45,157 nt of DNA from a virus. A model generated the notes under the pieces. That model was not told where the DNA came from. It saw only the letters and a list, made by a program, of their open reading frames with translations, and made no database searches. The translations under genes were made by a program, and so were the position numbers. Shown piece after piece: positions 1,602-38,293 of this stretch. The DNA lies in IMG/VR virus record IMGVR_UViG_3300030328_004203, positions 1 to 45,157 of that record, one strand, 5' to 3'. Numbering within the stretch: the first letter of the stretch is position 1; each line of letters opens with the position of its first letter.

Positions 1602-4051
1602 GCCTCACAAGCTTCTGGGTTAGCGATTGAACAAGCAACCATTTCTTCTTCTGTATATTCTTTACCCTCTGTATCTGCCTCTGTCTCTCCTGTTGATTTC
1701 TCAACTTTGGAGGCAGCTCTATTTCTTAAATAGTATGTAGTCTTGAGTCCTTTTTCCCAAGCCGCCATATAAATATCATTTAAATATTTTAATGAAGTGC
1801 CTTTATTATAAAGGTTAAAAGATATCCCTTGGTCTATCCATTTCTGCCTAGCTGCATTACATTCAATTAGTTTAAACATATCACGGTCAAAGGCGGTCAT
1901 GTATTTCTCTTTAAGATGCTTAGGTATGTCTAAAAGGCTAACATCTCCGTCTACCTCTTTAACTGCTTCAGCAAACTGTGGGTTCCAAATACCTTCTTTC
2001 TTCATGTCATCTACGAATTGTTCGTTCGTGATGTAGAAGTTTCCACTTTTGTTTTCGTAGACGAACAGGACTGAGAAGTTCGGTTCGATGCTCTGCTCCA
2101 CACCGTTGATATAACCAATAGTGGCAGTAGGAGCAATTGCCATGGTGTTACTATTGCGCATTCCATATTTTGTTATGTGTTCTCTGAGTGCTTCCCAGTC
2201 TATATTTTCGCTACCTACTTCAGTCTTTTTAACCCCACGTTTAGCCATAAGCGTATTGTAGGTATCTATTGGTAGAATATTCTTCTCCCATAGAGAACCA
2301 GAGTAGGTCTTGTAAGCTCCTCTCTCTTTAGCTAACTCACTAGATGAAAGTATAGCATTATAAGAAAAGAACTCTGTTAAATCATCTATAAACTCAACAG
2401 CTTTATCTGAATCGTATTGTATATCAAGAATTTGCAATACGTCATGAGTAGCCATCATACCTAGTCCAACTGGGCGATGCTGCATATTAGCATTTCTAGC
2501 CTCTTCTGTTGGGTAAAAATTTAGGTCGATTACGTTGTCAAGGATTCTAATAGCCGTCTTTACGGTAGAGGCCAAAAGCTCCCTGTCGATTCTGAGTTGT
2601 TTAGCTTCACTAGGGACTCTGAGATGATTCTTAAGATTGACAGAGCCAAGATTACATACAGCAGTTTCGCCAATTTCCGTTTTAATGCCGTTTTCATAGC
2701 TAGACGCCTTCGTGTGCAGAAGTATTTCTGTACAAAGGTTTGAACTATGTACTACACCCAAATGTTGATTGCTGTAACGAATATTTGAGGGGTCTTTGAA
2801 CGTAATCCATGGGTGAGATGTCTCGAAAAGAACCTTTAACATCTTTTTCCATAGATCTTTAGCGTTAACGACACGGTAATTTGATAAATCTCCGTTCTTT
2901 GCCTTTACGCACATTTCGTCGTAAACTTTTTTAAATTCATCACCGAATGTTTCATGTAAATCTCGACAGTCGGATGGGCAAAACATGTACCAATCTTCAT
3001 CGTTTTTTACTTTTTCCATGAATAAATCTGGCACCCAAGAAGCTGTATTCATGTCATGACAGCGTAAGCGGTCATCTCCTGTGTTTCGGCGCAAATTGAG
3101 AAAATCTTCAAAATCAAGATGCCAAGGTTCGAGATAGGCACAGCCAGCTCCCGGCCTTTTACCTCCTTGATTTACTGCGACGAGTGTGTCATTGAGGATT
3201 TTGAGCCATGGCACAAGACCTCCAGAAATCCCGTTTGTGCCTTTGATAAAAGCGCCAGATGCACGAAAATTAGAAACATCAAAACCCAAACCTCCAGCAT
3301 ATTTACTCTTACGAGCTTCTTGCCAGACTCCCTCGAAGATTCCGTCAATACTATCATCAAATGTATTTAAATAACATGAGCTTAATTGTGAGTGAGTAGT
3401 TCCACTATTAAAGAGAGTAGGGGTGGAAGGAGTGTACAACATATTGCTAAATAAATTATAGAACTCAATTGCTCTCTCTTCTTTATTTTCTTCATTTATT
3501 GCTAAGCCCATGGCTACCCTCATCCAAAAGGCTTGAGGAGTTTCCATTATCTTGTTATTCAATCTTATAAAGTATCTATCAATTAAAATTTGCAGACCTA
3601 AATATTTGAATAAAGAATCTCGTTCTGGCTGCATAGCTTCTGAAATCTTCTTTAGATCGAAATCCAGAATTTTTGCAGATACTATTTCTGCTTTAACTAA
3701 TTTTTTTATATTTTGTACAAATACTTTCCTGTATTGTAATTCAAAAGTATCGCTGTCTACGCTCTCCCTAAATACTTCCTTATATAGAGCGTTGGCAGCT
3801 AGCGCGCTAGCGACTTTACTATAATTAGGCTCTTTTTCTATTTTAGCTCTAGCAGATAAGATTAAAGCATCGTCAATCTGTTTAGTTGTTATCTTATCAT
3901 AAAGCTGAAGTCGGGCATCTAATATGATTTCGCTTGCCGAAACCCCATTACCTTCAATACCTTGGCATGCTCTGTATACACATTTGTTTATTTTTTCTAC
4001 GTTGAATTCCTCTAATTTTCCGTTTCTTTTTTTGACTCTTATGCTCTGCAT
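1592..4051 (-). CDS. nrdA: Ribonucleotide reductase class I large subunit
   Basis: This 819-residue catalytic subunit reduces ribonucleoside diphosphates to deoxyribonucleotides. An N-terminal ATP-cone (about 1-90, starting IRVKKRNGKLEEF) gives overall activity control by ATP/dATP. Active-site residues are present: C226 (SSCYLN), N438-C440-E442 (NLCTE), C466 (AVCNLGS), the PTATIG phosphate-binding loop near 641-646, and the radical-relay pair Y773-Y774. The C-terminal tail carries the CxxC redox shuttle C815/C818 (EACEACQ) re-reduced by thioredoxin or glutaredoxin. It is the first gene of the nrdA-nrdB unit and is full length for the family. A consensus-like promoter lies 40 bases upstream. 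No clear ribosome-binding site precedes the ATG. Confidence 0.97.
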   Translation of the reverse strand: MQSIRVKKRNGKLEEFNVEKINKCVYRACQGIEGNGVSASEIILDARLQLYDKITTKQIDDALILSARAKIEKEPNYSKVASALAANALYKEVFRESVDSDTFELQYRKVFVQNIKKLVKAEIVSAKILDFDLKKISEAMQPERDSLFKYLGLQILIDRYFIRLNNKIMETPQAFWMRVAMGLAINEENKEERAIEFYNLFSNMLYTPSTPTLFNSGTTHSQLSSCYLNTFDDSIDGIFEGVWQEARKSKYAGGLGFDVSNFRASGAFIKGTNGISGGLVPWLKILNDTLVAVNQGGKRPGAGCAYLEPWHLDFEDFLNLRRNTGDDRLRCHDMNTASWVPDLFMEKVKNDEDWYMFCPSDCRDLHETFGDEFKKVYDEMCVKAKNGDLSNYRVVNAKDLWKKMLKVLFETSHPWITFKDPSNIRYSNQHLGVVHSSNLCTEILLHTKASSYENGIKTEIGETAVCNLGSVNLKNHLRVPSEAKQLRIDRELLASTVKTAIRILDNVIDLNFYPTEEARNANMQHRPVGLGMMATHDVLQILDIQYDSDKAVEFIDDLTEFFSYNAILSSSELAKERGAYKTYSGSLWEKNILPIDTYNTLMAKRGVKKTEVGSENIDWEALREHITKYGMRNSNTMAIAPTATIGYINGVEQSIEPNFSVLFVYENKSGNFYITNEQFVDDMKKEGIWNPQFAEAVKEVDGDVSLLDIPKHLKEKYMTAFDRDMFKLIECNAARQKWIDQGISFNLYNKGTSLKYLNDIYMAAWEKGLKTTYYLRNRAASKVEKSTGETEADTEGKEYTEEEMVACSIANPEACEACQ

Positions 4052-33037: not shown

Positions 33038-33595
33038 TTATTTCTTAATCTTTCTTTTTAAAATTTCTGCACCTCTTTTATGTAGGTTTATTGCTGTCTG
33101 AGAGCTGAATCCTAACTGACTTCCTATCTTTTGCCAAGTCATCTTTTCTCCAGAAAAATATCTAAGAGAGTATACGCTCTTTATTCTATCATCTTTCATT
33201 TTATTTAATTCATTAAAAATAAATTTATTTATTTCAATGTTTTTATATGGAGCATCTTGGTCAAGTTGTAAAGTATTCTTCTTAACTCTCTCTGCTAGCA
33301 TGTATTTTTTGGTTTGTTTGCTTATCATATGTAAACATCTATATTTAACGTTATTGCTTAGCCAAGTACAGAAGCTAGATCCCTTGTCTAAATTGAAACT
33401 TTTCGCTGACTCGTAAATAATTAAATCTTTATCTGATAATATATCATTAGGGTCAGCCCCAGATTCTGTTAACGGGTTTATATATTTCGAATACATTGAT
33501 AAGAATACAGGGGAGTATCTTAGTATTATTTTTTCCAGCGACTCATTACAGTCGTTAGATTGTACTTTTTTTATTTCATGATAAAAGTTTTTCAT
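33038..33595 (-). CDS. Phage RNA polymerase sigma-factor-like protein
   Basis: The 185-residue protein has the two core regions of sigma-70 family factors. Region 2 has NLDKGSSFCTWLSNNVKYRCLHMI (about 70-93), equivalent to 'fDp.kG.kFsTyA...ir..i'. Region 4 is a C-terminal helix-turn-helix (TWQKIGSQLGFSSQTAINLHKRG, 151-173). The intervening DQDAP segment resembles the linker of short sigma factors. It would redirect host RNA polymerase to phage promoters, probably late ones, as T4 gp55 does. It is first in the leftward direction from the divergent control region, behind a 400-base leader that includes a structured RNA. Confidence 0.82.
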   Translation of the reverse strand: MKNFYHEIKKVQSNDCNESLEKIILRYSPVFLSMYSKYINPLTESGADPNDILSDKDLIIYESAKSFNLDKGSSFCTWLSNNVKYRCLHMISKQTKKYMLAERVKKNTLQLDQDAPYKNIEINKFIFNELNKMKDDRIKSVYSLRYFSGEKMTWQKIGSQLGFSSQTAINLHKRGAEILKRKIKK

Positions 33596-33825
33596 AAATT
33601 TTTAAAAATGCTAAACGAGCACTCCGCAAGCGGAGTGGACAAATCTTGTTTTTTGGTTGATGAAGTTTTTAGTTTATTTGCTCTGGGCGCAGTCCACCCA
33701 ACTAGAAAATTAAATAAACAATTACAAAAGAACGCTTTCGCTTCCATATTAGTTCCAATCGCAGGGGTCTATGCCCTTTTCAGCCCTTTTCTCTAGAGCT
33801 TAGCTAATGACTTCTGTAATCTATA
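33596..33825 (-). other. Long structured leader of the sigma-factor gene
   Basis: These 230 bases between the structured RNA and the sigma-factor ATG hold no gene on either strand. On the minus strand GTTTATTT and AAATAAAC (around 33718 and 33677) form an 8-bp helix enclosing a TGGG/CCCA hairpin. Close to the start codon CACTCCG-CTTG-CGGAGTG (33637-33620) forms a 7-bp hairpin with a tetraloop, followed by GCATTTTTAAAAA. No independent promoter was found, so it is probably transcribed by read-through and may regulate sigma synthesis. Confidence 0.45.
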
Positions 33826-34000
33826 CAAAAAAGTATGAAACTTAAAAGGTAGAACTTTTTTAGATGGGTCTCACTTCTCTCATACGCCGCCTGCACCCGC
33901 TTGTAGCGTACCTTCCAAGGTTCGAGAAGCCCCTTCGGGGTTGTTGGTCTCTTAAGAGTTCAACAGACTTGCTTTCGCTTTCACCTTTCAATCATACTTT
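33826..34000 (-). ncRNA. Putative structured non-coding RNA (about 173 nt)
   Basis: The predicted start of the minus-strand promoter (about 33998) coincides with the 5' arm of a perfect 9-bp helix between 33992-34000 and 33830-33838 (AAAGTATGA with TCATACTTT). A second 6-bp helix follows (33983-33988 with 33845-33850, AAAGGT/ACCTTT). Inside are CCCC-GAA-GGGG, a TGTTG/CAACA hairpin around CTCTTAAGAG, ACCTT/AAGGT, and CTTCTC/GAGAAG enclosing a TACGC/GCGTA arm. The closing helix ends in TTTTTT, so it doubles as a terminator. No tmRNA, RNase P, 6S, tRNA or intron signature was recognised. A standalone regulatory RNA upstream of the sigma gene is the best reading. Confidence 0.65.
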
Positions 34001-34004
34001 TTGA

Positions 34005-34033
34005 ATTATAGATTTGTCTTGACTTTTTGTCAA
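34005..34033 (-). promoter_or_regulatory. Perfect leftward promoter of the structured RNA and sigma leader
   Basis: On the minus strand TTGACA (34028-34033) and TATAAT (34005-34010) are exact consensus with a 17-bp spacer. Its -35 lies within the right arm of the inverted repeat CTTGAC-TTTTT-GTCAAG, so it competes with the rightward promoter for the same DNA. Confidence 0.8.
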
Positions 34034-34034
34034 G
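34018..34034. repeat. Inverted repeat containing two divergent -35 boxes
   Basis: CTTGAC (34018-34023) and GTCAAG (34029-34034) are perfect 6-base arms around five T. The left arm holds the rightward -35 and the right arm holds the leftward -35. One polymerase, or one dimeric repressor, bound here would exclude the other promoter. Confidence 0.75.
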
Positions 34035-34047
34035 TCTTTTTTAAAAT
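34019..34047 (+). promoter_or_regulatory. Rightward promoter of the nucleotide-metabolism operon, leaderless
   Basis: TTGACT (34019-34024) and TAAAAT (34042-34047) have a 17-bp spacer. Exactly six bases separate the -10 from the dCMP deaminase ATG at 34054, so the A of ATG is the expected transcription start and the mRNA should be leaderless. Confidence 0.75.
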
Positions 34048-34053
34048 TTAAAA

Positions 34054-34458
34054 ATGGACAGGTTAAATTGGTTTGACTATGGAATAGAACTTGCTAGAAC
34101 AGCATCTCTTAGAAGCGAAGACCCTTTTGTTAAAGTTGGATGCTGTATTTTAAGGCCAGATAATAGCATAGCTTCTCTTGGTTACAATGGAGCACCTCCC
34201 GGAATAGACATTGATTGGTCTAATAGAGACGAAAGAAGAAAAAGAGTTATTCACGCCGAGACAAATGCTTTAAGACACATAAAGCCTAATGAAGCAGATA
34301 GAATGTTCGTAACACTAATGCCATGCTCAGATTGCATAAAGAATGCTGCGTCTTACGGAATAAAAAGAGTATTTTATGTTAACGCTTACGAACTAGACTC
34401 GTCAGCGGTAGAGATAGCTAAAGAATTTAGAATAACATTACAACAAATAAAAAAATGA
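34054..34458 (+). CDS. Deoxycytidylate deaminase
   Basis: The 134-residue zinc enzyme converts dCMP to dUMP for thymidylate synthesis. Zinc ligands and the catalytic Glu are H67-A-E69 and P90-C91-x2-C94 (MPCSDC), the HAE...PCxxC pattern of the cytidine-deaminase fold. GYNGAPPGIDI near 43-53 is typical of dCMP deaminases. It is the first gene of an eight-gene rightward operon. Its ATG is at the predicted transcription start. It overlaps dUTPase by ATGA. Confidence 0.93.
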   Translation: MDRLNWFDYGIELARTASLRSEDPFVKVGCCILRPDNSIASLGYNGAPPGIDIDWSNRDERRKRVIHAETNALRHIKPNEADRMFVTLMPCSDCIKNAASYGIKRVFYVNAYELDSSAVEIAKEFRITLQQIKK

Positions 34459-35745: not shown

Positions 35746-36344
35746 TGTTTTCTCATAGCCCAACACAAGAAATACACGCATCAGAAACTTTTATGTTTGA
35801 TCGTTTATTCTTTGAAGCAGATCTACCAAAAAAAGAACTGCCAGAAGAAATTAAAGATCAAGACATGTCTGAGGTAGAATTCCAAACTTCCGATCTCAAT
35901 GGATCGATGGATACTTGGTCTGTTTCAACAGCAGGAGAACTATTTTATCATGAAGTTGAACAAAACATAACCAAGGATGATGACTCAGAACGAGGGTTTG
36001 TCGTAGAAGAAAGTCAGACCGGTATAAAGAAGGTAGAAGATACAAAGTCAGTTCACTTCTATAGAGTCTTTGAAGGCGAAGAACAAGACTACTGGGTATC
36101 CTTTGACGCTCTATTCCATAAAGGCAAACTCTTACTAGTTGAACTTAATGATGTTTCAACTGTAAACAGACAAGAGAGAATACAAGCTAAAGCTAATGCA
36201 GAGAAATTCATGCAAGAGTACAAAGCTAGAAACGAGCGCAAGACAAGCCCCTTCTTAAAGCCTGTAAAACTTTTTATAGGTCTGTCTTTAGTCTTACTTC
36301 ATTGGGTAGGCAGAAACATCTCTAATCTTCATTCGAAACTATGA
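35745..36344 (+). CDS. Hypothetical acidic protein with C-terminal membrane anchor
   Basis: The 199-residue protein has an acidic N-terminal half (KKELPEEIKDQDMSEVEF), a beta-rich middle (GFVVEESQTGIKKVEDTKSV), a basic helix (ERIQAKANAEKFMQEYKARNER at about 144-165), and a C-terminal hydrophobic segment (LFIGLSLVLLHWVG). It is probably tail-anchored in the inner membrane with most of the chain in the cytoplasm. No family is recognised. It overlaps the dNMP kinase gene by ATGA. Confidence 0.6.
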   Translation: MFSHSPTQEIHASETFMFDRLFFEADLPKKELPEEIKDQDMSEVEFQTSDLNGSMDTWSVSTAGELFYHEVEQNITKDDDSERGFVVEESQTGIKKVEDTKSVHFYRVFEGEEQDYWVSFDALFHKGKLLLVELNDVSTVNRQERIQAKANAEKFMQEYKARNERKTSPFLKPVKLFIGLSLVLLHWVGRNISNLHSKL

Positions 36345-36931
36345 TTGCTTTAAGCGGTATTGCTGGCTCCGGAAAAGATTTATTCTGTAGGTTACTGTTG
36401 AGAGAAATCTCAGGCCAAAGAATAGCTCTTGCAGATCAACTAAAAGAAGAAGTTAGACCTTTTATAATTAATAGATACAGTATAGACATTCTTAATTGCT
36501 CGTTAGAAGCTAAAAATAAAGTTCGGAGCTTTCTAGTTTTCCACGGAGGTTTAAAAAGATTCCAATCACAAGGCTCTCACTGGACCTCTATAGCACAAAA
36601 GAAGCTTGATAACTGTAAGTCTACTCCAGTTGTTACAGATGTTAGGTATGACGAGTATAAAGATGATGAAGTAGACTGGGTTAAACAAAAGAATAAAGGG
36701 GTGCTAGTTCATATTAGAAAGTATTGGGAAACCGAAGGCTTATTTAATATGGAGAGGCATTATTTTGATCCACCAAACGAGGATGAAAAGAAGAATGACC
36801 CAAAGTTAATGTCAAAAGCTGACTACTGTATTGAATGGCCTCATATAGAAAATGCGACGACTAAAGAAATAGAAGATATTTTACGACCATTCGCAATAGA
36901 ATTTGCTGAGTGGTACAAAAAAAGGAGCTGA
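36341..36931 (+). CDS. Deoxynucleoside monophosphate kinase
   Basis: This 196-residue P-loop kinase starts IALSGIAGSGKDLF (Walker A, GxxxSGK at about 6-12), followed by RIALADQLKEE, the acceptor-binding segment of dNMP kinases, and TPVVTDVRYDEY, the Walker-B-like strand also seen in T4 gene 1 protein. It would phosphorylate dNMPs from host DNA breakdown and from the deaminase-dUTPase route. It belongs to the rightward nucleotide operon. Confidence 0.8.
   Translation: MIALSGIAGSGKDLFCRLLLREISGQRIALADQLKEEVRPFIINRYSIDILNCSLEAKNKVRSFLVFHGGLKRFQSQGSHWTSIAQKKLDNCKSTPVVTDVRYDEYKDDEVDWVKQKNKGVLVHIRKYWETEGLFNMERHYFDPPNEDEKKNDPKLMSKADYCIEWPHIENATTKEIEDILRPFAIEFAEWYKKRS
36921..36927 (+). promoter_or_regulatory. 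Strong ribosome-binding site fixing the start at 36934
   Basis: AAAGGAG lies six bases before the ATG at 36934. It decides against the longer GTG frame to 36910. It stands out because most genes in the window have little or no Shine-Dalgarno sequence. Confidence 0.8.
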
Positions 36932-37712: not shown

Positions 37713-37741
37713 TTGACAACACGTTAAGAACAATGTATACT
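37713..37741 (+). promoter_or_regulatory. Sigma-70-type promoter of the SSB-like gene, near-leaderless
   Basis: TTGACA (37713-37718, perfect) and TATACT (37736-37741) have a 17-bp spacer. Nine bases separate the -10 from the ATG at 37751, so the mRNA should start within about three bases of it. Confidence 0.8.
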
Positions 37742-37750
37742 TATTAAAGT

Positions 37751-38293
37751 ATGATTCAGTTTTATAAAGCAAACGCAAAAGTAACAGGAACAGCTTGTTC
37801 TTTCTCTGTCAATCCGAAAGACAAGTCAATATACGCTAGCTTGATCAAACAGAAAAGCTGGGATGCTAACTCTAAGACCGGAAGGTTCGATACAGAGAAT
37901 AAGTGCATCACCAAGCTTAGTGTTATGGAGCTAGGAGCAATCATTAACGCCATTGACACGAAGACAGATTGGTCTGCTTATCACGGAACTCAGACTAGGG
38001 CGACTAAGATGAATTTTTCTCCTTATTCTCAAGGAGATAATCACGGCTATAACTTTAGGGTAACAGCAGATTCCAAAGAAGACTCTGAAAACAAAGCTAC
38101 GTTTTCTATGGGTTTTAGATACGGAGAAGCTGAAGCGTTAAAGCAATATTTTGTATTCGCTATGCACTCCATCTTCCAAAACTCTCTAGAAGAAGCGCAA
38201 GCAAACGCCGCTGGTAACAAAAAGTCTAGCTACACTAAGCCAGCACCAAAACAAACTCAAGAGCAAACAGCCGATGAAGATGTAGTTTGGTAA
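37751..38293 (+). CDS. Putative single-stranded DNA-binding protein
   Basis: The 180-residue protein begins IQFYKANAKVTGTACSFSVN and alternates strands with aromatic and basic residues (IYASLIKQKSW, ATKMNFSPYSQ, GYNFRVTADS, KATFSMGFRYG). A helix and a Lys/Pro/Gln linker follow, with an acidic-aromatic tip, ADEDVVW. The beta-rich core plus a disordered linker and acidic tip is the plan of phage and bacterial SSBs, whose tips recruit replication partners. This is an inference from architecture. It heads a transcription unit with its own strong promoter, as expected for an abundant DNA-coating protein. Confidence 0.5.
   Translation: MIQFYKANAKVTGTACSFSVNPKDKSIYASLIKQKSWDANSKTGRFDTENKCITKLSVMELGAIINAIDTKTDWSAYHGTQTRATKMNFSPYSQGDNHGYNFRVTADSKEDSENKATFSMGFRYGEAEALKQYFVFAMHSIFQNSLEEAQANAAGNKKSSYTKPAPKQTQEQTADEDVVW

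Follow-up and report, generated by a model that had tools for sequence, protein, structure and literature searches.

A conserved two-domain structured RNA, a candidate new RNA family, at the head of a phage sigma-factor operon

The window analysed here, the whole 45,157-base IMG/VR virus record, contains a 458-base spacer between divergent sigma-factor and dCMP deaminase genes, within which the element described below is located (Table 1). The window sigma protein matches NCBIfam TIGR02937 at E = 2.5e-9, and the proteins of two relatives pass the 42.9-bit cut-off of this model with 43.5 and 43.6 bits. The element lies directly upstream of this sigma-70-family gene in the divergent control region, in line with a first-pass annotation of the sequence, which had placed it there upstream of a sigma-factor gene. 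It is preceded by a perfect TTGACA-N17-TATAAT promoter, of which the window contains two copies where none is expected (0 in 20 Markov simulations), and the same spacing is found in the related phages L003 and L009 (both TATAAT) and L011 (TATACT). Judged by its sequence, the RNA promoter is a host-type sigma-70 promoter of perfect consensus. No second good promoter was found in the stretch between the RNA and the sigma gene, which implies that the sigma-operon transcript begins with the RNA. The divergent promoters (34018–34054; TTGACA on the minus strand, TTGACT-N17-TAAAAT on the plus strand) share a 6-bp inverted repeat, CTTGAC-N5-GTCAAG, in an arrangement that is conserved in four phages, and as the plus-strand −10 element ends 6 bases upstream of the dCMP deaminase ATG, the deaminase mRNA may be leaderless. 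Elsewhere in the window, a plus-strand promoter TTGACA-N17-TATACT (37713–37756) lies directly upstream of a Whirly-like gene and is similar to the promoter region of the RNA (77% across 44 bases).

Table 1. Position of the predicted RNA elements and neighbouring features in the window
Feature	Position	Strand	Remarks
Sigma-70-family (ECF-like) sigma factor	33038..33595	-	First gene of the RNA-headed operon; start codon at 33595
GC-rich hairpin before sigma start codon	33620..33637	-	Covaries; possible weak terminator or processing site
Third hairpin, UUGGGUG...YGCYCA	33684..33700	-	Follows domain 2 and precedes the last hairpin; lacking in L079
Domain 2	33719..33824	-	P3 (33821–33811 with 33730–33720), Pa (33800–33795 with 33787–33782), Pb (33776–33774 with 33767–33765), invariant GUCAUUAGCUA
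Candidate inter-domain pseudoknot	33751..33856	-	AGUUCUA (33856–33850) with UGGAACU (33757–33751)
Domain 1	33830..34000	-	Closed by P1 (34000–33992 with 33838–33830) and P2 (33990–33984 with 33849–33843)
Inner arm of domain 1	33874..33929	-	Helix 33929–33924 with 33879–33874
Whole structured RNA, ~400 nt	33601..34000	-	5′ part of the sigma-operon transcript; conserved in four phages
Sigma-70 promoter TTGACA-N17-TATAAT	34005..34033	-	12/12 matches; predicted start ~33998
Divergent dCMP deaminase gene	34054..34458	+	phrog_174, E 3e-34; neighbour kept in four close phages

Three close homologues, all from IMG/VR phages, were found by separate routes, L003 by a sigma-factor protein search (72% identity), L009 by a scan with a 20-base core of the RNA, and L011 with a sigma-protein profile. 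In all three, the same two genes flank the spacer, which is conserved over its full length, and the RNA is present in one copy per genome, no further copies being found in the close genomes. Identity within the RNA cores amounts to 86–95% in domain 1 and 70–86% in domain 2, far above the 45–57% observed at third codon positions of the flanking genes in the same phages, indicating that the element is under strong selection. A small protein was rejected as the conserved product, as no reading frame is conserved: a frame of 36–53 codons starting in P3′ shifts among the four phages, and the longest frames differ between phages because the indels are not divisible by three.

The first-pass annotation had described an RNA of 175 nt (33826–34000) in which the 5′ and 3′ ends pair in a perfect 9-bp helix that also serves as the terminator. 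The helix, P1, is indeed present, with AAAGUAUGA pairing perfectly with UCAUACUUU on the minus strand; the promoter-predicted 5′ end falls on its arm, and a six-U run (33834–33829) overlaps its 3′ arm in the window. As this U run is missing from all three close relatives (CACACUUGGUAU, CAUAUAGUAAAA and UAUACUAAAAAA), the closing stem does not qualify as a conserved terminator. Moreover, conserved structure continues for ~200 nt past the U run, doubling the length of the RNA, and P1 thus closes domain 1 and not the whole molecule, a second domain lying downstream. On comparative sequence grounds, the RNA is a phage-encoded, two-domain molecule of ~330–400 nt with conserved structure reaching to ~33620.

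In domain 1, an A–U pair of P1 is replaced by G–C in L003, and the core of P2 varies among the close phages as AAAGG/CCUUU, AAUGG/CCAUU and AACAG/CUGUU. The inner arm encloses a covarying hairpin (33921–33910) together with the invariant hairpin CUACAAGCGGGUGCAGGCGG. Domain 2, the support for which is at least equal to that of domain 1, is spanned by the 11-bp long-range helix P3, where 11 of 11 pairs form in all four phages while the pairs themselves vary. A candidate pseudoknot may connect the two domains, as 7/7 pairs are present in the four phages with a single wobble change and the AGUUC/GAACU core is retained in the more distant phage L079; the pairing is, however, nearly invariant and is therefore weak as covariation evidence. 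The last hairpin, ~25 nt upstream of the sigma start codon, has the arms CACUCCGC/GCGGAGUG in the window and GAUUCCGC/GCGGAAUC in the other close phages. No terminator was called at this hairpin, its U tract being imperfect in the window, whereas it carries a U-rich tail in L009/L011; the sequence shows no convincing 3′ terminus for a discrete RNA.

Covarying base pairs in homologues, the general criterion for a structured RNA family and the test that had been named beforehand, are present in this RNA. In a hand-drawn structure of 61 pairs, evaluated on the four close sequences against 500 shuffles in an alignment in which P2 is misaligned, 98.7% of cells pair and six pairs are changed on both sides, and neither value is reached in any shuffle (0/500); sliding the partners lowers pairing to 43–50%. 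When L079 is added in domain 2, 10 of 26 pairs are changed on both sides (0/500 shuffles) in an alignment fitted to the structure, and the L079 helices were additionally checked on the raw sequence, independently of that alignment. The pairs also discriminate between strands. Read on the minus strand, P3 has 44/44 standard pairs, with many G·U pairs among them, as compared with 35/44 on the plus strand, where nine become A·C, and the RNAalifold consensus energy is −71.1 kcal/mol for the minus strand as against −50.4 kcal/mol for the plus strand. A plus-strand RNA was rejected in view of the poorer consensus energy, the A·C mismatches and the direction of the conserved promoter, which is along the minus strand.

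Folding z-scores, a further check proposed for the RNA, are modest. At 175 nt the single-sequence fold is only moderately unusual, with z = −2.2 (minus strand) and −2.6 (plus strand), and at 403 nt z is −1.3. Single-sequence energy that is only mildly better than that of shuffles cannot carry the case alone, and the real evidence is comparative. Such modest z-scores, as well as the inverted repeat at the promoters of the divergent spacer, would be in keeping with a DNA-level element (origin, packaging or protein-binding site) or with chance folding of a conserved spacer that yields no functional RNA. We regard this as highly improbable, given compensatory changes with G·U pairs on one strand only and the recovery of the helices in L079 with new base pairs.

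L079 was reached by a scan with AAGTCATTAGCTARRCTC, which matched three known members, three sites in coding regions and L079. In the spacer of this phage a promoter-like TTGACA-N17-TAAGGT is followed by UAAGAGAC, AAAAAAAGUUC, GUCAUUAGCUAGGCUC, GGGUCGAAA and UUGCGAAGAACU in the same order as in the window, and both P2 (CCGAUU/AAUCGG) and P3 (UUAUUCAAG/CUUGAAUAA) consist of new sequences that pair perfectly. L079 is recovered by a domain 2 model built without it, scoring 28.9 bits with E = 8e-4 in a search of 485 kb. A domain 1 model search did not find it, domain 1 of L079 having diverged, and beyond the search motif the resemblance is no more than suggestive (14/300 shuffles were as good). 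Thus, we would place L079 in the family by virtue of its domain 2. Downstream of the L079 RNA lie a dNMP-kinase-like gene and then a sigma factor homologous to that of the window. The corresponding kinase-like gene of the window (36341–36931) belongs to the plus-strand operon, whereas in most relatives it lies upstream of sigma, and would represent a gene that moved across the divergent junction.

Among 2.9 million viral contigs, the family thereby counts only five members, of which four are close to each other. Neither GenBank phages nor plasmids yielded a homologue. Weak model matches in L119–L121 and L071, and in 38 further records, were rejected as low-complexity or coding sequence, and the new matches of a gapped-core pattern scan were all judged to be due to chance, as the other motifs were missing. 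In 12 other phages in which the sigma gene lies behind the kinase-like gene, the divergent spacers are short and the RNA was not detected, so that the RNA appears to be optional at the operon head, at least in a form that the models can detect. A 550-nt non-coding spacer (2492–3044), probably structured, precedes the sigma operon of a 162-kb phage, L116; although the place corresponds, it bears no similarity to the RNA and was rejected as a homologue.

The RNA had been put forward as unrecognised, and this description stands. Two modes of Rfam search returned no family at gathering score, tmRNA, RNase P and 6S RNA gave no covariance-model or ARAGORN match, and ARAGORN found no tRNA or tmRNA in the 45-kb window. 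tmRNA, RNase P RNA and 6S RNA are similar to it in their comparable length range, their bacterial or phage origin and the pairing of 5′ and 3′ parts. The large ornate RNAs of phages and prophages, GOLLD and ROOL, are multi-domain and pseudoknot-bearing and have no conserved ORF (PMC12286853), features that are shared by the phage-encoded noncoding RNA described here, in which the pseudoknot is a candidate. They are, however, ~660 or >800 nt in size as opposed to 330–400 nt, often (frequently but not obligatorily) lie near tRNA islands, whereas the window has no tRNA and the RNA described here heads a sigma operon. Rfam searches detected none of GOLLD, ROOL and OLE, either at gathering score or when the few matches up to E = 10 were considered. 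From these sequence searches, we consider the RNA a new candidate RNA family.

In HK022, too, a phage transcript opens with a structured RNA directly behind a host sigma-70 promoter, putL being located just downstream of a host-type promoter (PMC9378689). By analogy, the nascent RNA might bind host RNA polymerase and allow it to pass the terminators of the operon. The position of our RNA, with its start at ~33998, is comparable, but put RNAs are ~70 nt with two stem-loops (PMC9378689), whereas the present RNA, at ~400 nt, is five times larger and has two multi-helix domains. In addition, a strong terminator (28357–28322) closes the first minus-strand block and is directly followed by the second perfect TTGACA-N17-TATAAT promoter (28314–28286). 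With a new promoter immediately behind the terminator, there is no evident need for long-range antitermination, which makes a put-like role less likely still, and we hold it to be unlikely.

What is conserved in this RNA is the fold and its loop sequences, and not any switch at the sigma start codon. We therefore favour, with a probability of roughly 45%, the reading in which the folded RNA has an autonomous function, as RNA or RNP, in the course of infection. Domain 1 would fold first behind P1/P2, and domain 2 may then dock onto it via the weakly supported AGUUC/GAACU pairing. At the hairpin before the sigma gene, leaky termination or cleavage could free a fraction of the transcripts, and release at this point would yield abundant free RNA alongside the sigma mRNA. 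Direct adjacency to the sigma gene leaves a cis-acting 5′ leader nearly as likely, in which the RNA would control its own operon through attenuation at the last hairpin, control of sigma translation or feedback binding of the sigma protein. In agreement with a leader, the RNA lies on the same strand as the sigma operon, 25–30 nt before the first start codon, and lacks a separate promoter in the four phages and L079; its place at the operon head is kept even though the kinase gene intervenes in L079; and the U-tailed last hairpin of L009/L011 could be an attenuator. However, the expression platform is not conserved, the U tail being poor in the window and absent in L079. The element between the RNA and the start codon, a GC-rich hairpin in four phages and an AU-only hairpin in L079, is not even conserved in kind, which argues for an autonomous fold over a switch. 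In size the RNA also far exceeds typical protein-binding leaders, and it is more conserved than they are; the 12 relatives with the same operon manage with short spacers in which no copy was detected.

A bolder and more doubtful form of the autonomous reading is that the RNA represents a previously undescribed class of large phage RNAs that acts in trans during infection, be it as an RNP, an oligomer or a catalyst, in which case transcription from a host-type promoter would produce it alongside the phage sigma factor. Few large structured RNAs are known from phages, and the candidate family offers a defined start, a covarying two-domain structure and an ultra-conserved set of loops. Situated ahead of a phage sigma-factor gene, where two divergent operons are switched, it offers a testable example of an RNA positioned at the point of phage takeover of transcription.
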